The notes beneath the pieces were generated by a model. It did not search any database and was not told the origin of the DNA. It saw only the letters and a program-made list of their open reading frames with translations. DNA of 64,000 nucleotides from Bryobacteraceae bacterium (lineage in GTDB: Bacteria; Acidobacteriota; Terriglobia; Bryobacterales; Bryobacteraceae), in NCBI GenBank assembly GCA_019752335.1, contig JAIEMJ010000023.1:62001-126000 (forward strand), written 5' to 3'. The translations under genes and the position numbers were made by a program. Position 1 is the stretch's first letter, and every line of letters begins with the position of its first letter. Of this stretch, positions 3,942-64,000 are shown piece by piece.

Positions 3942-6101
3942 CTAGGCGCGCCCCTGGTTTTGCAGTTGAGAGTGAATCAATTGGGTAAGCGGCTGTAGCG
4001 TGTCGAGTTCTTCCAAAGGTACCTTCATCTTGCGCCGCCAGTTGGGATACTCGGCGGTGCTGCCGGGTAAATTCTGCTGATGCGCCTCACCGGTAATCTC
4101 TTCCTGATTGAGGATAAATACGGCGGATTTCGCTGGCGCCAGGAAGTCGATTACGGCTTCCGCCAGCCGATCACCGGAGAGGGGCCATTCTTCTTTCGGT
4201 GTACCGAGTGCGACGCGTAAAGGCTCAAGCGACTCGCGCCGTTCTTGCCATTGGCGGTCGTAAGAAGACCGGTCCGGCAGCAGGCCGGCGGCCAAGCGAG
4301 CTTCAATATCGGCGCCGGAGAGAAAGCCGGAGAGCGTAGGTAAGTCGTGCGTGGTAACCGAAGCCGCGGCCAGCGCCGGGTAGTCTTCGGCGGCGCGAAA
4401 AGTATCTGCCTGGCGCTCAAAAATTAACAGGCGGTAGCCGAGAATGCCGAAACGGTCGAGCAGTTCGCGCATTTCTGGCGTCACGGTTCCGAGGTCTTCG
4501 CCGATCACCAGGAACTTCTCACGGACACTCTCGAGCGCGATGATCCGCAACAGAGCTTCGGCCTGATTACGAACATAGGCACCCTGGCGCGCGCTAAGTT
4601 GTCCGGGAATCCAATAGAGGCGGAAGAAGCGCATGACATGGTCGAAACGAAGGGCCCCGCCGGCGTGGGCATTAGCCCGGATGAGTTCGCGAAAACTACG
4701 GTAGCCATCTAGGTCCGCGTAGGTGGGACTGGGCGGCGGAAAGGCCCAGTCCTGGCCTTCGGGGGAAAATCCATCAGGCGGCGAACCAACGCGAACCCCC
4801 TGCGCGAAGGCGGCCTTTTCGTACCAGACGTCGAAGCCGTAACGGTCACTGGCCAGGGCTAAGTCATGATAGAGGCCGAGTGACATCCCAGCGGCGTGTA
4901 AGTCCTGTTGTACGCTCTCTAATTGCTGTTCCAACACCCATTGCAAATAGATGTGAAAGCGTAACGAGCGCGGATGACGGCGGGCAAACTCGGCCACCGC
5001 CGGCGAATCAGGACTACGGTATTCATCGGGCCAATCGGTGAACAGCCAAACGTCGGGGCGTTCACGATGGATGGCTTCATCGAGGGTACAGAAGGTCGCG
5101 AAGGCCCGCAAACGATGCAGTTCGGGGCGCTGGCAGTAGGCATCGAAGGCGCCGCGCCGCGGAGAGTCCTCGCGTTCTAACCGGCGGTGTGCGAGGCGGA
5201 GAAGGCGTTTCTTCAGGCGCCAGACGCGTTCATATTCGACATACTCCGCCGCGCGGAGCGCGGCCAACTCCTCTTGTATGCGACGCGGCAAGACGCAGGA
5301 ATCTAACTCAGGCACCGACGCGACGTCGATATAAAGCGGATTCCGAAAAAAGGCGCTTAACGGTAAGTAAGGGCTGGTGTTAAATGGTTGGCGGTTATGG
5401 ATGGCGTGTAAGGGATTGAGTCCGATGAAGCTGACCCCGAGTTCTCGCTTGGCCCAGAGGCCGAAGGCGCGTAAGTCCTCCGTATCGCCCGCGCCCCAAT
5501 TGCGCGCGGATCGCAGACCATAAAGACTAATCGCGATCCCAGCGGTCCGTAGGCCTTCCGGCATCCAGGCTTTTTCGGGGCCAACGATTAAAGCCATCGT
5601 GGCCGTGGTTTCCGCGATGCGAACCGTCAATTCGTGATAGCCGAGCGGTAACTCGTCGTAGAGGGGAATTTGCAAACGGACAAAGCGCTCGCCCCGCAAT
5701 TCAGCTTCGGCCAGAACCGGGAGGGAGCGGCAGGCAAAGTCACCTCGTTCGAGCCGGCCGTCCTCGTGGCGAAGAGTCACCTCCACGCGGTGGTGGAGGT
5801 GTGCGGCGCGTAGGTGCAGAGTAAGTTCGCCAGCGCTAGGTTTCGTGCCTACGACACAGGTGGGCGGGAGCAGATGATTCCAGTGCTGCCACAGACGTTC
5901 CTCTTCGGCGGCGTTCAGGGCGGCTAAGGACGTCGCGTCGATGCCGAAGGAACGCAGGATTCCTTGCTGCACTTCGCCGGTGGCGAGGTGGGTTTCGCCC
6001 CAATTATCGGTATATCCCGGCTCGATACCATGGGCGGTGGCGGCGCGCTGCAAGGCCTCGGGGAGCGTCTGGGCGGGTTGAAAACGGATAAGCTCTCGCA
6101 A
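3942..6101 (-). CDS. malQ: 4-alpha-glucanotransferase (amylomaltase, GH77)
   Basis: Transfers maltodextrin segments between alpha-1,4-glucans in glycogen or maltodextrin metabolism, in the cytosol. At 719 residues it is the long form with an N-terminal beta-rich region (about 1-180) before the GH77 barrel, which opens with [19 protein letters not shown]. The catalytic trio is visible: nucleophile D487 (RFDHVMRFF), acid/base E535 (GEDLGT) and D586 (THDLPT). The start appears to be TTG at 6101, since the N-terminal motif begins at once and no ATG is near; a TAAACT hexamer lies 6 nt upstream. It diverges from nuoB across 32 bp and leads into dtd. Confidence 0.93.
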
Positions 6102-57277: not shown

Positions 57278-57301
57278 AGCCCATCGCGCAAGCGATGGGT
57301 T
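57278..57301 (-). terminator. GNRA-capped hairpin after the small minus-strand gene
   Basis: CCCATCGC (57280-57287), the loop GCAA and GCGATGGG (57292-57299) form a perfect 8-bp stem that extends two pairs further with a G-U and an A-T. It begins in the stop codon of the 57-residue gene. There is no U-tract, so it is a 3'-end hairpin rather than a proven terminator. Confidence 0.4.
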
Positions 57302-57473
57302 ACAGTGCGGGGAATGTGCCTGTTTTTCTGGGCTTGTAAGGATTCCGAATCGCGTTTCGCCAGAACGACTCAGCCAACTCCGGGAGATCAGACAAGTCGG
57401 GCTTGGCGGCGAGCAAAGCCAGTTCCCGTTTCTGCGCGGGAGTTGGCGGATAATCCGTAAGGGATTTCTTCAT
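57300..57473 (-). CDS. 57-residue protein resembling the N-terminal part of BrnA-like antitoxins
   Basis: A short frame reading MKKSLTDYPPTPAQKRELAL and then DLSDLPELAESFWRNAIRNP before a short tail. The 'D-x-SD-x-PE...FW-x-NA-x-RNP' stretch is typical of the N-terminus of BrnA/CopG-type antitoxins of type II toxin-antitoxin systems, but the ribbon-helix-helix part that should follow is missing: only about a dozen residues remain (KPRKTGTFPAL). It starts 6 nt after the stop of the anti-sigma kinase gene on the same strand and could be translated by coupling. No toxin gene is near. It is probably a remnant, or a small protein in its own right. Confidence 0.5.
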   Translation of the reverse strand: MKKSLTDYPPTPAQKRELALLAAKPDLSDLPELAESFWRNAIRNPYKPRKTGTFPAL

Positions 57474-57479
57474 ACTGAG

Positions 57480-57911
57480 TCAGCGCTTCAGACGCTTCAC
57501 CATCCGCAATTCGTTCTTCTCGCCGGGCACGATCTGATAGTGGACGTCGTCCATAATGCTCTTAATCAACCGCAGACCCAGCCCGCCATTCTTCCGCTGC
57601 GCGACCAGTTCCTCCAGGTTGAGTTGGCGCACCCCGCCCGGATTGAAGGACTGCCCGTTGTCCACAATCACGATCTCGATCTTGTCCGCGTCGAGCAAGG
57701 CGCGGATCTTCACTTCCTTGCTGTGGTCCATGCCGTAAGCATGTTCAATGACATTGGCGCAAGCTTCGTCGACGGCCAAGCCCAGCTTCATCACCTCGCG
57801 CTCATCCATCCCGGCCATCTCGCCGAGCTTCGAGACAAAGTCGCGGATCATGGCGAGATTCTCGGTAGATGACGGCACGTGCAGCGCGAAGGTTTTTTCC
57901 ATCTCAGCCAT
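57480..57911 (-). CDS. RsbW-like anti-sigma factor / serine kinase
   Basis: A 143-residue GHKL ATPase of the RsbW/SpoIIAB type that phosphorylates a STAS antagonist and binds its target sigma factor or another partner. The N-box is VDEACANVIEHAYG, the G1 box IVDNGQSFNP and the G2 box GGLGLRLIKSIMD. It follows the STAS gene by 9 bp, the usual pairing. No sigma-B-like gene is present in the window, so its target may be elsewhere or not be a sigma factor. Confidence 0.9.
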   Translation of the reverse strand: MAEMEKTFALHVPSSTENLAMIRDFVSKLGEMAGMDEREVMKLGLAVDEACANVIEHAYGMDHSKEVKIRALLDADKIEIVIVDNGQSFNPGGVRQLNLEELVAQRKNGGLGLRLIKSIMDDVHYQIVPGEKNELRMVKRLKR

Positions 57912-57920
57912 GCGTAATTC

Positions 57921-58289
57921 CTATTCTGGGGTTCCGATGCCCTGGGCGAAGTGCGACATGGCGTCGTCTACCGTACTCACCATGTCAAAAAGCGCCGGAA
58001 AGCCCAGCACCTCGAAGACCTGGTAGACCTTCGGCACCACACCCGCCAGCTTGATGTCGCCGCCAGCGGCGCGGATCTCTTCGATGAAGCTCATGAAGAC
58101 GCCCAGTCCGGCTGACGAGATGTACGTCAGCTTCTGGCAATCCACGGCGATCCGGTTACGGCCGGCCGTATGTTCTTCCTGAATCGCTTTCTCAAATTGA
58201 GGAGCCGTGTGGGCATCGAGATAACCATCGAGCGCCAGCAGCACCACGCCGTCCTTTTCCGTTCGTTCTACTCCGAATGCATTCGGCAT
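57921..58289 (-). CDS. STAS-domain anti-sigma factor antagonist
   Basis: A 122-residue RsbV/SpoIIAA-type protein. The phosphoacceptor serine is S58 or S59 in TYISSAGLGVFMSF, with GDIKLAGVVPKVYQVFEVLG as the C-terminal half. In partner switching the dephosphorylated form binds the RsbW-like kinase and frees its target; phosphatases encoded upstream in this locus would reset it. It lies 39 bp after the first PP2C gene and 9 bp before the kinase gene. Confidence 0.9.
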   Translation of the reverse strand: MPNAFGVERTEKDGVVLLALDGYLDAHTAPQFEKAIQEEHTAGRNRIAVDCQKLTYISSAGLGVFMSFIEEIRAAGGDIKLAGVVPKVYQVFEVLGFPALFDMVSTVDDAMSHFAQGIGTPE

Positions 58290-58328
58290 GTTTGGTCTAC
58301 TTCCATCCTCCTGGCGAGATTCTCCATC

Positions 58329-59135
58329 TTAAACCCTCACTACAAACAAAGTCATGTCATCATGCGGTGGCGCGCTGCCGATAAACTCGCGCACGGACCG
58401 CAAGATCGCCTCTTCGGTGGCGGCAGCGTCCAGGCCGTCGGAGGCGTCGACCACCGCTTGCAGACGGTCTTCTCCGAACTGCTCCCGCTCCTCATTCATC
58501 GCCTCGGTGATGCCGTCGGAGTAGAGCACGAACGCATCGCCCGGTGAGAGTTCCACCTCTTCCAAGCGCAAAGCCCGCTCAAACAACAGCCGGCTGGTGA
58601 GGCCGAGCCCCATGCCCGGCGGCGTCAGATATTGGCTCTCACCCTGGCTCGCCCGGCGCCACAGCGGCGAGTTGTGCCCCGCCCTCGCGAGCGAGATGCG
58701 CCGTTCCTCCGGCGAAAAATAGGTGAGCGCCATCGTAACGAAAATCTTGCGCTTGCCGGCCGCATAGAGGTGCGAATTCAATTGCGACACCGTCCCCAGC
58801 AAGTCGTCCGAATCGCGGCCCGCGGCCGCCAGGAAGCCTTTGGTGAGCGTCATGTAGAGCGACGCCGGCACGCCCTTGCCCGACACGTCCGCTACGCCAA
58901 TGGCGTAGCGTCCATCGCCGGTCGGGTAGAAGTCATAAAGGTCACCGCCGACGTCGCGCGCCGGGATGCACGTCGCGGCCAGCGACGTCTCGCCGATCCG
59001 CGCCGGTACCTGCGGCAGCATCGCCTGCTGCGCGCGGCGGGCCACATCGAACTCCGACGACAGCCGCTCGCGCTGCGACTTCACTCCCGTCGCGGACTCA
59101 GCCACCATCGCGCGGACCTCCGCCGCTTCGTCCAC
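58329..59135 (-). CDS. SpoIIE/RsbU-type PP2C phosphatase domain protein
   Basis: A 268-residue protein: an N-terminal helix or coiled coil (about 1-40), then the PP2C domain with its metal-binding aspartates in ARDVGGDLYDFY, IGVADVSGKGVPASL, LYSDGITEAM and PHDDMTLFVVRV. It should dephosphorylate the STAS protein encoded next. It begins with GTG at 59135, preceded by AGGGGA at a 5-nt spacing. Crucially it is in the same frame as the membrane protein gene before it, separated only by TAG and three codons; together they match the neighbouring 799-residue paralogue in length and layout. It is therefore the severed catalytic half of a membrane PP2C sensor, probably still made by re-initiation. Confidence 0.87.
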   Translation of the reverse strand: MDEAAEVRAMVAESATGVKSQRERLSSEFDVARRAQQAMLPQVPARIGETSLAATCIPARDVGGDLYDFYPTGDGRYAIGVADVSGKGVPASLYMTLTKGFLAAAGRDSDDLLGTVSQLNSHLYAAGKRKIFVTMALTYFSPEERRISLARAGHNSPLWRRASQGESQYLTPPGMGLGLTSRLLFERALRLEEVELSPGDAFVLYSDGITEAMNEEREQFGEDRLQAVVDASDGLDAAATEEAILRSVREFIGSAPPHDDMTLFVVRV

Positions 59136-59144
59136 CGCCGTCCC

Positions 59145-60713
59145 CTAGCGCATGATCACCATGCCGGCCGCGGCCGTCGCCAACAGCGGCGCCGCCACCC
59201 ACCAGGCCCGCAAGCTGAGCGCCGCCACCGGTTGCACGCCATACTGCGCCGTCAGCCACACCGCCACCATCGTTGCGCCGCCCGTCAACGCCGCCAGCGC
59301 GCCGTACTCCCGCTCCACCAGCCACATCGCCAAGGCCATCAGCAAACTGGCGCACAGCGTAGGCGCCCCCCAATCATCAAAGGGCGACCGCATGATGAGC
59401 CAATTCACGCCCACCGTCACCACAAACACCGGCGCCTGTAGCCACGCGGGCCGCAACCAGTGCGTGAGCGGCAGCACCACCAGGACGATCCCGACGATGT
59501 CGATCAGCAGGAACGGTTGGAAGATCCCCGACAGTGGATTCGGAGCCATCAACGCGGCGACGCCGCTGAGTTGCGTCTGCGCGGGCCCGAAGGCTGGCGC
59601 CACCAGCAGGGGAAGCGCCGCCAGCGCCACGCCGCAAAGCACGCCGTGGAAGACGCTCGCCCCCACTGGCCGCAGCAGGAACCGCCGCGACAGCAAGGCT
59701 TCCAGCCCCAACCAACGCGGATGATCCTTCGCCGCCAAATAGCCCCGGCCGGCGCCATAAAAGAGCACCAACGCGCACGCGAGCACCACTTGGCTGAAGA
59801 TGAAGCCCGCGATGCGGCCCCATACACTACCGAATTGCCGCGCGCCCTCGATCCTGGTCTCGTCAAGCCATGCGCCGCCCGCAAGCCCCACCAGCAAAAT
59901 GACGCCCGCCAGCGCCGCCGCCGAAAGGAGGCGCCGCATCCTCAGCCGGCGATGGACCAGCGCGCGGAAAAAGCTGGGGAAAGCGAGCGTCACCACGACG
60001 AAGTCCGAAACGAGCGTGAACGCAAAGGCGTAGCTTTGCCAGGATTGCAGCGTGCGTACCTGGGCGCGAAAAGAGTCCGAGGGCTCGGTCACTAGCGCGG
60101 CCTGCACCAGGCGTTCGTCGCTGAAGCTCGCCTCAAACCGCAACACGTGCGGCGAGTCCGCCGCATCGTTGAACTCCCAGGAATAGAGCAATTGGCTGCT
60201 CTGCGTGATGCCGCGGTTCACCGGCCGGAAACGGCTGGCGAACTCGCCCAAATACTGCGCCCGTGTGCCATCGGCCAGCGCGTCCAGCGTCTCGCTGGCA
60301 TGCACATGCCCCACGCCGTCCGCGACACGGGATAGCGCACTGAAGCCCACCACGCGGCCATCCGACGCAAACGTGACTTCCACTGTGCGCTCGTCGCCCG
60401 GCTGCCGCAGCGAGACGCGAACGACGTACGGCGTCACCAGCGAACTGAAGACGCGCGACTCCGGATGCAGCCGCCGCCAAAGATAAATCCAGGCCCCGCC
60501 GCGCCAATTCTCCGCTTGCACCGCGCTCCACCAACCTGCGGTGTCCACGCCATTCAAACGCGCCACCTCGCGCGCCTTGCTGATCGCTGCCTCGCGCGAC
60601 AGCCGGAACTGGCCCAGGTCCGCGGCACGGTCGTGCTGGGGAAAGAGCCACCACACCGCCACCGCCCCCAACAGCGCCGCGAGCACCGCCAGCCAAGTGC
60701 GCTGCCGCATCAT
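59145..60713 (-). CDS. Membrane sensor half of a split PP2C phosphatase
   Basis: A 522-residue protein with one N-terminal membrane segment (TWLAVLAALLGAVAVWWLF), an outer domain (about 30-250, with ISKAREVARLNGVDTAGWW), then about ten membrane segments to the end. It ends at TAG (59147-59145) right after the last segment (LLATAAAGMVIMR). The paralogue upstream continues at this point through a short linker into a PP2C domain; here the PP2C domain follows in the same frame after the stop. Summed length with the next gene is about 794 codons against 799 in the paralogue. The start (ATG 60713, or 60710) is 1 nt after the upstream stop. Confidence 0.75.
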   Translation of the reverse strand: MMRQRTWLAVLAALLGAVAVWWLFPQHDRAADLGQFRLSREAAISKAREVARLNGVDTAGWWSAVQAENWRGGAWIYLWRRLHPESRVFSSLVTPYVVRVSLRQPGDERTVEVTFASDGRVVGFSALSRVADGVGHVHASETLDALADGTRAQYLGEFASRFRPVNRGITQSSQLLYSWEFNDAADSPHVLRFEASFSDERLVQAALVTEPSDSFRAQVRTLQSWQSYAFAFTLVSDFVVVTLAFPSFFRALVHRRLRMRRLLSAAALAGVILLVGLAGGAWLDETRIEGARQFGSVWGRIAGFIFSQVVLACALVLFYGAGRGYLAAKDHPRWLGLEALLSRRFLLRPVGASVFHGVLCGVALAALPLLVAPAFGPAQTQLSGVAALMAPNPLSGIFQPFLLIDIVGIVLVVLPLTHWLRPAWLQAPVFVVTVGVNWLIMRSPFDDWGAPTLCASLLMALAMWLVEREYGALAALTGGATMVAVWLTAQYGVQPVAALSLRAWWVAAPLLATAAAGMVIMR

Positions 60714-60714
60714 C

Positions 60715-63114
60715 CTAAGCCACCCCCCGCAACGCAACGCTCGACCCGGCCTGCAACTGCGGCACCTGCATCTCCACCACCACTGCGGTGATGTCGTCCT
60801 GCAGATCATGGCCCGAGGCTTGCACCGCCTGCATCAGGTCGGCGTGGAAACGTTCCGCGGTCTTCGACAACCCACCATCCAGCCACGCGTCGAGCCGGCA
60901 GCCCAGCCGCGCTTCTAACCGCGAAACCAGCCCATCCGTGCAAAACAGAAACAAGTCGCCGGGGCCGAGTTGTAAGCGCGTCTCCGCGCCAGCCGTGCGC
61001 GGCTTCACTTCCTCGATCGCCCGCGCCTGGCCGCGCATATGGAACAGACGCGGATGCTGACCGATGCGGGCAAACCGCAACTCTCCAAGCGACGGATCGA
61101 GCACCGCATAGCAGAGACTAAAGTGATGCGCGGTCGACGAAATCGCCTGCGTCAGCACGGGCTCCAGCCGCTCGAGCGCCTGCGCCGGTGGCCAGTCCCG
61201 CAGGGCGGCATAGGAGAGGAAGCCTTTCGCCAAACCGATCGTGAGCGCGGAGGCGAGTCCGCCAGAGCTGCCGTCCGCCACCAGAATCCCGTAGCGATTC
61301 CGGGAGAGCCGGAAGAAGTCGTAAAAGTCACCACCCACTTCGCGCGCCGGATGGCAGGACGCGGCCAGTCCGAAGCCGGGGATCTCCGGCACGCCTTCCG
61401 GCAGCAGCCGCACTTGCGCTTCCCGCGCCGCCGACACCTCCTGCTCCAGCTGCAGACGCTCCTGGAGACGATGCGCATGCTGCGGACGCACCTCGGCGTC
61501 GCTGAGCTTCCGTCCGCGGTAGACGGCGATCAGCGCAAAACACGCCGACGCCACAGCCAGGCCATAAATGCGGTACTCGGTGGCCGCCCATCCCGCCACC
61601 ACATCGGTGATCTCGTGATTGTGCAAAAAGACGAAGAACCAGCCCAACGCCACCACGACCGCCAGGAAGTCGCCAATCCAAAAGGTCACCAGCGCCAGCG
61701 CCGCAATCAGCACGGGCACCGCAATTGAACTCGGCTCATCGAAATTGATACTGAAGCCCGAACTCACCGCCCCCAGCAGGCAGAAGAGTATGGCCAGAAA
61801 ACGCCGCAGCAAGCTCTGCCCCAGGTGGCGGCTCAGGTAGAGCAGGGGGAGCAGCAGGCAAATACAGGCGATAAAAAAAGCGGTGATGGGATCACCCATC
61901 ACGGAGATCAGGCCCGGCGACCGGCCATAAACCATACCCAGCAAGCGCTCCCGCAGATCACTGCTCCCGGCAGCCTTCTGCACCAGACGGATCGCCAGAA
62001 AGGCCCACCCGCCCGCGGCCGCGCCGGTCACCACCGAGCGACCCACATTCGCCGACGTGACATAGCCGCTGAACAGCGCGTCGAGCGACGTGATCTTGCC
62101 CGGATAGCTCTCGCGCATCTCCCCTTCGCCGGCGCCGTAAACCAGCGCAATCAGAATGCCCTGCAGCGTGGAGGAGAGCACCACCGACAACGGAATCAGC
62201 ATCGCGAAGGGGCTGATCATCTGGTCCGGATTGAGCGCACCGTCGCCCATGGTCGGGTCGGCGACGGCGACGAAGATCCCGAACATCGTCATCGCGCCTA
62301 CCATAACGGCGCTGCGCGTCCAGGAGATCTCGCGCTCCAGCGAGCGCCGTGAAAAGCGATAGATCGAATACAGCACGCCGAGCGCCAGCGCGACCCCCGC
62401 CAGCCCCGACACAATTCCGTTCGCGCGCGACTCGCGCACCGGCAGTTCGCCGCGGTTCACCTTCAGCTTCAGGGTGCGCTCGGTAATGCGGTCGCAGTGC
62501 ACCTCCACGGTGAGTGTGCTCTCCAGGCCCGGCATCACCGGCGTATTCCACAGATACCGGCGCGCCGCATGCGACCCTTCCACCGCCGCCGATTCCACCT
62601 CCGGCTCTCCCCAAGCATGGCCCGGAAACGCCCGCTTCGCTTCCGCCAACGCCAACGCGCGGCTCTCGCTCTCCGGCGGAACATTGCCCAACGCCAACAG
62701 ATTCGTCGACATGTCGAAGCCGTGCAACGCCCCGTCCGGCCGCAACCACACCGCCAGCCACCGCTGCTTGTCGGGAGCGATTAACACCACCCGAATGGTC
62801 GTGATGGGGGCCAGCAGCTTGCGCTCCTGAGGCAACGTCCGCCAAGCTTCCGTACGCGCCAGAACCGCGTGCTCCGCACCCAACGTCGGATGGATGGCCG
62901 GGCTCCAGTCGCTTACGTTGAGTCCCAAGGTCCGGCCGAAATCGACCGCGCGGCGCAACGCCTCCGCCGAGTCAATATGCGGCTCCCGCACTTGCGGGAC
63001 CCGCAAGCTCAGCCCCAGCCAATAGGCAAAAGGAGCCAGCGCGAGCACCGCGAACCAGATAAGGGCCTTCCTTGTCGAGTCACCCGCAAAGGGCGACATC
63101 CAGCGCATCAGCAT
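60715..63114 (-). CDS. Multi-pass membrane sensor with C-terminal PP2C (SpoIIE/RsbU) phosphatase
   Basis: A 799-residue fused protein: N-terminal membrane segment (ALIWFAVLALAPFAYWLGLSL), an outer domain (about 35-225), around ten membrane segments (about 230-540), a coiled linker (HRLQERLQLEQEVSAAREAQ) and a PP2C domain with AREVGGDFYDFF, LVADGSSGGLASAL, FCTDGLVSRLE and LQDDITAVVVE. The usual VSGKG loop is changed to GSSGG, but the metal-binding aspartates remain. It should sense an envelope signal and control the partner-switching pair. The start is ATG 63114 (7 bp overlap) or 63108 (TGATG) with the GAF-PP2C gene. Confidence 0.87.
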   Translation of the reverse strand: MLMRWMSPFAGDSTRKALIWFAVLALAPFAYWLGLSLRVPQVREPHIDSAEALRRAVDFGRTLGLNVSDWSPAIHPTLGAEHAVLARTEAWRTLPQERKLLAPITTIRVVLIAPDKQRWLAVWLRPDGALHGFDMSTNLLALGNVPPESESRALALAEAKRAFPGHAWGEPEVESAAVEGSHAARRYLWNTPVMPGLESTLTVEVHCDRITERTLKLKVNRGELPVRESRANGIVSGLAGVALALGVLYSIYRFSRRSLEREISWTRSAVMVGAMTMFGIFVAVADPTMGDGALNPDQMISPFAMLIPLSVVLSSTLQGILIALVYGAGEGEMRESYPGKITSLDALFSGYVTSANVGRSVVTGAAAGGWAFLAIRLVQKAAGSSDLRERLLGMVYGRSPGLISVMGDPITAFFIACICLLLPLLYLSRHLGQSLLRRFLAILFCLLGAVSSGFSINFDEPSSIAVPVLIAALALVTFWIGDFLAVVVALGWFFVFLHNHEITDVVAGWAATEYRIYGLAVASACFALIAVYRGRKLSDAEVRPQHAHRLQERLQLEQEVSAAREAQVRLLPEGVPEIPGFGLAASCHPAREVGGDFYDFFRLSRNRYGILVADGSSGGLASALTIGLAKGFLSYAALRDWPPAQALERLEPVLTQAISSTAHHFSLCYAVLDPSLGELRFARIGQHPRLFHMRGQARAIEEVKPRTAGAETRLQLGPGDLFLFCTDGLVSRLEARLGCRLDAWLDGGLSKTAERFHADLMQAVQASGHDLQDDITAVVVEMQVPQLQAGSSVALRGVA

Positions 63115-64000
63115 CGGCGAACCACCATCATGGTGATATCGTCAAACTGCGGCGCCTCTCCGGCGAACTCGTCAATGCGCTGGAACATGTGGTCAATGAT
63201 GCGGTCCACCGGCCACTCCCGGGACTCTCGCAATGCCCCCACCAGCCGCTCCATGTCGAACTCCTCGCCCCCCAGGTTATTCGCGTCCGGCACGCCGTCC
63301 GAGTAGATGAAGAGGATATCGCCCGAATGCAATTGCAAGTCACCCTGCTCGAACTCGCGCTTCGGAAACATGCCGATCGGCATCCCGGTGGTGCCCAGCA
63401 GTTCCACGCTCCCGTCGGCGCGCAGAATCACCGGATCATTGTGCCCGCCGTTCACATACTGGCCCGCCCCCGTGGCCGGGTCATACCGGACCAGAAAAGC
63501 CGTGGCGTACTTGTTGGGCGGCGTACTCGCCCACAGCAGATCGTTGGTGCGCACCGCGATCCGCCGCACATCAGTCTCATGCGCCAGAATCGCGCGCAGC
63601 GTAGCCTGAATGTTGCTCATCAACAACGCCGCCGCAATGCCCTTCCCCGAGATGTCGGCGACGCAAAGCAGATGCTCGGGTTGCTCGCTGCCGTGGCAAT
63701 AGAGGACGTCGTAGTAGTCGCCGCCCACCTGCCGGGCCTGCCGGTTCCGCGCCGCGATCTCCGTATGGTCCAAGGTAGGAAGCGTCTTCGGAAAGAGGTC
63801 TACCTGGATCGAGGCCGCCAGGTACAGCTCCTTCTCGATCTGCTGCTTGGCGAGCGTCTCCCGGAAGTGCCAGGCGTTGTCAAAGGCGACGGCGGCTTGG
63901 GCCACCAGGCCCGCGCCGAACTCGCGGTCAGCCTCCGTGTAGGGCTTGCCGCCCAGCCGCGGACCCAGCACCACCACGCCATGGCACAGGTCATTCGAGC
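63108..64000 (-). CDS. GAF-PP2C (RsbU-type) phosphatase, 5' end outside the window
   Basis: The frame runs off the window edge; the visible part is about 297 residues. It starts inside a GAF-like domain (VVLGPRLGGKPYTEADREFG, AQAAVAFDNAWHFRETLAKQ), then a coiled linker (KELYLAASIQVDLFPKTLPT) and a PP2C domain with ARQVGGDYYDVLY, CVADISGKGIAAALL, YSDGVPDANN and FDDITMMVVRR. It is the third phosphatase of the locus, cytosolic as far as seen, and would add a soluble signal input. It overlaps the membrane PP2C gene by 7 bp or 1 bp. Confidence 0.87.
   Translation of the reverse strand, partial: SNDLCHGVVVLGPRLGGKPYTEADREFGAGLVAQAAVAFDNAWHFRETLAKQQIEKELYLAASIQVDLFPKTLPTLDHTEIAARNRQARQVGGDYYDVLYCHGSEQPEHLLCVADISGKGIAAALLMSNIQATLRAILAHETDVRRIAVRTNDLLWASTPPNKYATAFLVRYDPATGAGQYVNGGHNDPVILRADGSVELLGTTGMPIGMFPKREFEQGDLQLHSGDILFIYSDGVPDANNLGGEEFDMERLVGALRESREWPVDRIIDHMFQRIDEFAGEAPQFDDITMMVVRRC

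Follow-up and report, generated by a model that had tools for sequence, protein, structure and literature searches.

The 64,000-nt stretch of a Bryobacteraceae contig analysed here (the window) carries on its minus strand a membrane-protein gene and a SpoIIE/PP2C phosphatase gene parted by one in-frame TAG, which raises the question of whether a sensor-phosphatase has come apart into two working proteins, has been inactivated, or merely appears to be split. The initial annotation had placed both genes in one frame, separated only by TAG-GGG-ACG-GCG and summing to about 794 codons, and translation bears this out: positions 60713-58329 read as 522 residues, the TAG, a second stretch beginning GTAVDEAAEVRAM... 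and a terminal TAA, for a total of 795 codons with the TAA included. The TAG at 59147-59145, where the junction reads TAG-GGG-ACG-GCG-GTG, is the single internal stop, and no further lesion interrupts the 522 and 268 codons on its two sides. The TAG-split single frame is confirmed at these coordinates, and it is not a chance arrangement, since another genome of the same genus, Bryobacter sp. Bin_55_1_sub (JALHNI010000158.1), holds both halves fused in one 793-codon ORF (793 aa) that is 51% identical in the membrane part and 80% identical in the phosphatase.

The downstream half (58329-59135, minus strand) is a SpoIIE/PP2C (PPM) phosphatase by its match to PF07228 (153.4 bits, cut-off 25), and its acidic motifs are intact, with VGGD, DVSGKG, SDG and DD all read in the translation. 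The pattern of DVSGKG plus SDGxxE is present in all 46 homologues of the split gene that span the junction, this genome included, and the terminal DDxT in 37 of them; eight of the other nine read HDDWT, HDDAT or HDDMS, and the ninth (L045) reaches unread bases. The N-terminal regulatory domain, attached in 44 of the 46, is cut off here by the TAG; the loss of a covalent sensor bears on regulation and not on membership of the SpoIIE/PPM family.

The sensor half (59145-60713, minus strand; 522 aa) was read as one N-terminal transmembrane helix, an extracytoplasmic domain and about nine additional long helices, interpreted as transmembrane, and we propose that the stop sits at the cytosolic end of the last of these, between sensor and phosphatase. 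This half is without a Pfam family, and no Pfam family (E 0.5) was common to more than one of 24 members; its best PDB sequence match was to an unlike transporter at E 0.048. An AlphaFold2 model built from seven sequences had a mean pLDDT of 70.8 and a pTM of 0.66. Within it, the extracytoplasmic domain (residues ~34-210; 60084-60614, minus strand), itself without a Pfam match, is a predicted alpha/beta fold that resembles the C-terminal domain of YpeB: VIA-align 2 placed it on 5boi, that PepSY-type domain, with Z 12.0 and an rmsd of 4.3 over 143 aligned residues, ahead of 4pw1 (Z 8.0) and a next row at 6.5, and a search with Foldseek alone gave nothing at or below E 0.001. The likeness to YpeB lies in this predicted fold, whereas sequence identity is 7%, no PepSY model is among the Pfam matches listed for the 24 members, and there is no link to spore germination here. 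A possible likeness to intramembrane proteases (CPBP) had no counterpart among the Pfam, Foldseek and VIA-align matches listed.

Both halves lie in an operon-like minus-strand run of six genes. It begins with a SpoIIE phosphatase truncated where the window ends (63108-63998; PF07228, 163.9 bits), continues with a fused membrane and PP2C-like protein (60715-63114) and the two halves, and closes with a STAS-domain protein of the anti-sigma factor antagonist type (57921-58289; STAS 73.3 bits; TIGR00377 70.7 bits, cut-off 53.45) and an HATPase_c_2 protein of the kinase/anti-sigma type (57480-57911; PF13581 102.7 bits, cut-off 27.4). The last of these may work like RsbW, although it scores below the RsbW equivalog cut-offs (PRK04069, 83.5 against 145 bits; TIGR01924, 80.1 against 155.05 bits), and the STAS protein is the probable substrate of the phosphatase. 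Spacings along the run are -7, 1, 9 (or 36 to a downstream ATG), 39 and 9 nt, and such tight packing favours coupling of translation; a pattern search of 57300-63990 found no sigma-70-type promoter, and none to express the phosphatase separately. Homologues of the STAS and HATPase genes occur at 37 of the 46 loci, so that the cluster is common and not universal: some of the nine loci without them are short stretches, but five span 7.6-8.4 kb and lack both. As a separate observation, a terminator-like hairpin with a T run lies inside the gene at 60715-63114 (61883-61902, minus strand); the region holds 10 terminator-like sites versus 6.2 in shuffles, and a simple pattern search of Bin_55_1_sub found no counterpart of this hairpin.

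To place the split among its relatives, we used a profile (A1) built from three fused relatives; a contig scan with the window protein recovered no relative, and one with A1 recovered 71 loci. Across 237 genomes of the family, A1 gave 73 matches in 51 genomes at E 1e-60, and across 257 genomes of the order it gave 48 matches in 42 genomes at E 1e-90, all from Bryobacteraceae; these counts are minimum values, as the best four candidates per genome were scored and weaker homologues may escape. Two of the 48 begin past the junction at contig ends (G006:C192 and G260:C265) and were dropped. Among the 46 that remain, 44 are uninterrupted, one is cut by a TAG at the junction (this genome, the other 45 having no stop there), and one is cut elsewhere, by a TAG within the extracytoplasmic part, in a further genome of the family (G010). 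The remaining 25 of the 73 family matches cover the phosphatase part only; the five of these that were examined, with short frames of 305-412 aa, have no membrane half in the fetched flanks and hence are not further splits, and the other 20 are mostly in long frames. Since 44 of the 46 are fused and the junction is cut in this genome alone, we regard the fused state as ancestral and the split as derived and private to this genome among the junction-spanning homologues compared. This agrees with the earlier proposal that a fused ancestor underwent fission; unrelated sequence flanking the stop in sister genomes, the outcome that would have spoken against it, was looked for and not found. Bin_55_1_sub, the one other Bryobacter genome on which our sister comparisons rest, carries the genes of this run in unchanged order, with identities of 88% for the upstream phosphatase, 64% for the adjoining fused protein, 84% for the STAS protein and 88% for the HATPase.

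Two observations touch on these relatives. The orthologous cluster of G010 (L009, G010:C82, 5481-11160) holds four TAG and one TGA codons in three genes, while its genes for the STAS and HATPase proteins remain good matches (62% and 61%); it represents either a second lineage with breaking sensors or poor sequence. Outside the acidobacterial family, a metagenome-assembled genome labelled Rhodothermaceae encodes a fused protein of the same layout that is 27% identical (L097, 3851-6304).

The fused protein at 60715-63114 had been offered as an adjoining intact paralogue of 799 residues, like the split gene in layout. Its length is 799 aa, and both the kinship and the shared layout hold; what does not hold is that it is an unaltered or recent duplicate. 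It is 24% identical to the split membrane half over 366 columns (E 4e-06 as a single comparison) and 29% identical to the phosphatase half over 242 columns (E 6e-20), and its active-site motif is altered, reading VADGSSGG instead of VADVSGKG. DVSGKG was present in none of the 28 distinct relatives of this neighbour recovered with a signature pattern, a search that gives a minimum count of the group, and 21 of 28 are without Asp at the first position of the motif, which this genome's neighbour keeps; in SpoIIE the motif that matches DVSGKG is DGMGN, by a motif alignment made here (PMC3517971). The neighbour can hardly be a spare copy, given this divergence and a group without DVSGKG (28/28). 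It is an old, co-conserved partner whose relatives recur across the family, and it may act as a pseudo-phosphatase or by a changed chemistry. The split gene would then be the motif-intact member of a pair, and the combination of one motif-intact and one motif-altered member suggests that the two proteins pair up; a membrane phosphatase pair that recurs side by side in this form suggests heterodimeric control.

The explanation towards which we lean, with modest confidence, is a fission in which both parts are still translated, a soluble phosphatase is made by restart, and membrane control has been lost. The ancestor would have been a one-piece membrane sensor-phosphatase in a partner-switching cluster like that of RsbU, RsbV and RsbW, and a nonsense mutation where the last transmembrane helix meets the cytosol would have parted sensor from phosphatase. 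The sensor would still be produced, ending at the TAG, and ribosomes would restart a few codons on. The initial annotation had proposed a Shine-Dalgarno sequence, AGGGGA, 5 nt before GTG 59135; the element is present (59146-59141; site 59133-59146, minus strand), with a predicted duplex of -6.4 kcal/mol against the anti-Shine-Dalgarno tail, but the better candidate start is ATG 59108, which stands 8 nt behind GGAGG (59121-59117; site 59106-59121, minus strand), with a duplex of -10.2 kcal/mol, a value reached by about 1% of positions in its gene. Close gene spacings and two ribosome-binding-like sites past the stop make re-initiation plausible, most likely at the ATG and less likely at the GTG.

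The product would be a soluble phosphatase of 268 aa from the GTG or 259 aa from the ATG that keeps an N-terminal helix (the linker/alpha0 region) together with the catalytic motifs; the 259-residue form retains QRERLSSEFDVARRAQQAMLP ahead of the catalytic core. Freed in this way, the enzyme could continue to act on the STAS protein of the next gene, uncoupled from the membrane signal, and would either work unregulated or pair by way of the linker helix with a second phosphatase, for which the membrane paralogue next to it is a candidate. In RsbU, linker dimerization controls metal binding and activity, and the N-terminal part sets the linker-mediated dimerization that full activity requires (PMC12143880). 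The freed phosphatase may be weak if it shares this need for N-terminally set dimerization. We infer translation of both parts, re-initiation, enzyme activity, the substrate and the loss of membrane control.

Rates of evolution were compared for the two halves. In relative-rate tests with five outgroups, the membrane half had 29-41 private changes here versus 32-44 in Bin_55_1_sub, and the phosphatase half 5-10 versus 10-12; no rate difference between the halves here and the fused sister was detected with these outgroups (smallest p 0.143). Branch lengths here and in Bin_55_1_sub were 0.50 and 0.43 for the membrane half (23 of the 46 rows) and 0.27 and 0.35 for the whole protein in the 46-row tree. 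Against Bin_55_1_sub, dN/dS (NG86) stood at 0.37 in the membrane half and at 0.09 in the phosphatase half, with an excess of third-position changes, and these values are rough because dS is near saturation (1.2-1.9, whole genes). The ratio of membrane to phosphatase dN, 3.72, is the third highest of 25 pairs (0.92-4.37 in the other 24; pairs share members). Relaxed selection on the membrane half was not detected by the relative-rate tests, and the dN ratio, although high, is within range; mild relaxation may have occurred, given the rank of that ratio and a membrane-to-phosphatase branch ratio higher here than in the sister.

Clean halves and equal rates fit two kept proteins and a recent event alike, and it is on this point that the strongest alternative turns: the TAG may be a recent loss-of-function change that inactivated the sensor-phosphatase, with the halves still clean for want of time to decay. 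The privacy of the split to one genome is what such a loss would leave behind, and in the same family three genes of the G010 cluster contain five nonsense codons between them, so these sensors may be lost; another SpoIIE gene of this genome also appears broken, with a TAA within a partial match (L180, G000:C26, ~3990-4520) at a locus of short ORFs. Against this, the stop falls between domains, downstream starts lie within 9 and 36 nt of it, and the branch of the phosphatase half is shorter than that of the sister (0.085 versus 0.20, 23 of the 46 rows). On balance we judge a recent loss unlikely, while treating it as a serious contender.

Fission with both parts kept also has to be set against a sequencing or assembly error in a gene that is truly fused, which we hold to be decidedly improbable. 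At the column of the stop, defined by the same distance from VGGD, Trp (TGG) occupies 3 of 45 rows and the others have Phe and further residues; a simple guess is a Trp ancestor that changed from TGG to TAG by one transition, and as the two codons are one transition apart, a single wrong base could mimic the split. The codon in Bin_55_1_sub, however, is GCC (Ala), three changes from TAG, and the other genes of the run are intact here in a genome given as 97.25% complete in 55 contigs.

A variant that we consider very doubtful holds that the fused relatives already make two forms, a tethered phosphatase and a soluble one started from an internal ATG, so that fission would have removed the tethered form alone and left the free form to pair, by way of its linker helix, with the membrane pseudo-phosphatase encoded alongside, which would become the sensing subunit. 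An ATG 52 codons before VGGD is present in 17 of 45 anchored homologue rows (L016-L027, L030, L033-L036; L061 has no anchor and was omitted), comprising all 15 rows of one clade and both Bryobacter genes, and in none of the other 28, in a linker that is variable. Upstream pairing at these ATGs averages -7.0 kcal/mol, compared with -3.2 at 291 further in-frame ATGs in these genes, and reaches -6 kcal/mol or stronger in 11 of the 17 versus 14% of controls. It is no stronger than in synonymous shuffles (mean z -0.37), so that the pairing is accounted for by the amino-acid sequence of the linker. Met is the sole invariant column of 26 in the linker of these rows, which were picked for that Met, and the membrane part of the same rows has 14 invariant columns of 569, none of them Met. 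A conserved internal start in the fused relatives is suggestive on this evidence.

Readthrough of the TAG by a suppressor tRNA or recoding, with the fused protein still made, would suit a frame that is open across the stop and conserved on both sides, but it is highly improbable: release factor RF1 is present (506.8 bits, cut-off 423.25), 14 of the 40 window ORFs passing a simple coding filter end with TAG (the split gene included), and no CUA anticodon is among the 45 tRNAs called by ARAGORN in 47 matches (E up to 1), a set that by reading lacks Ile-GAT and Ala-TGC and is therefore incomplete. Taken together, these features indicate that translation should end at the TAG. Recoding of TAG had been raised as a candidate because G010, with 41 tRNA matches, also has in-frame TAGs, and was rejected in view of RF1, the tRNAs and the TAG terminators.

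If both halves are made, the locus would offer a natural cut at the joint between membrane sensor and phosphatase, with an uncut sister gene for comparison, and could show whether a phosphatase of the SpoIIE type depends on a covalently joined sensor, as the linker-dimerization model predicts (PMC12143880). Two proteins made in this way would be a small example, open to experiment, of a signalling protein that has come apart in a soil bacterium. A literature search of titles and abstract openings found no publication on the split gene or its fission.

Among known systems, the nearest in domain content are RsbU and RsbP, SpoIIE-type PPM phosphatases that serve the general stress response in Bacillus subtilis. 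The split gene shares with them a SpoIIE/PPM domain with intact motifs, a linker ahead of it and a position beside STAS and RsbW-like genes, and differs in that its sensor is a polytopic membrane protein, neither RsbT-binding nor PAS, and a separate polypeptide. SiaA, the SpoIIE-type PP2C phosphatase encoded beside a STAS protein and a kinase in SiaABC of Pseudomonas aeruginosa, is the best NCBIfam match of the phosphatase half, at 48.5 bits and far under the 700-bit cut-off, and its membrane part presumably differs from the sensor of the split gene. Fission of a gene by a nonsense mutation, with re-initiation of translation beyond it, is a known kind of event, and the present locus resembles it in having one stop between two domains with close downstream starts. 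Phosphatases of this type and gene fission are both already known; the new variant described here lies in a poorly described family.
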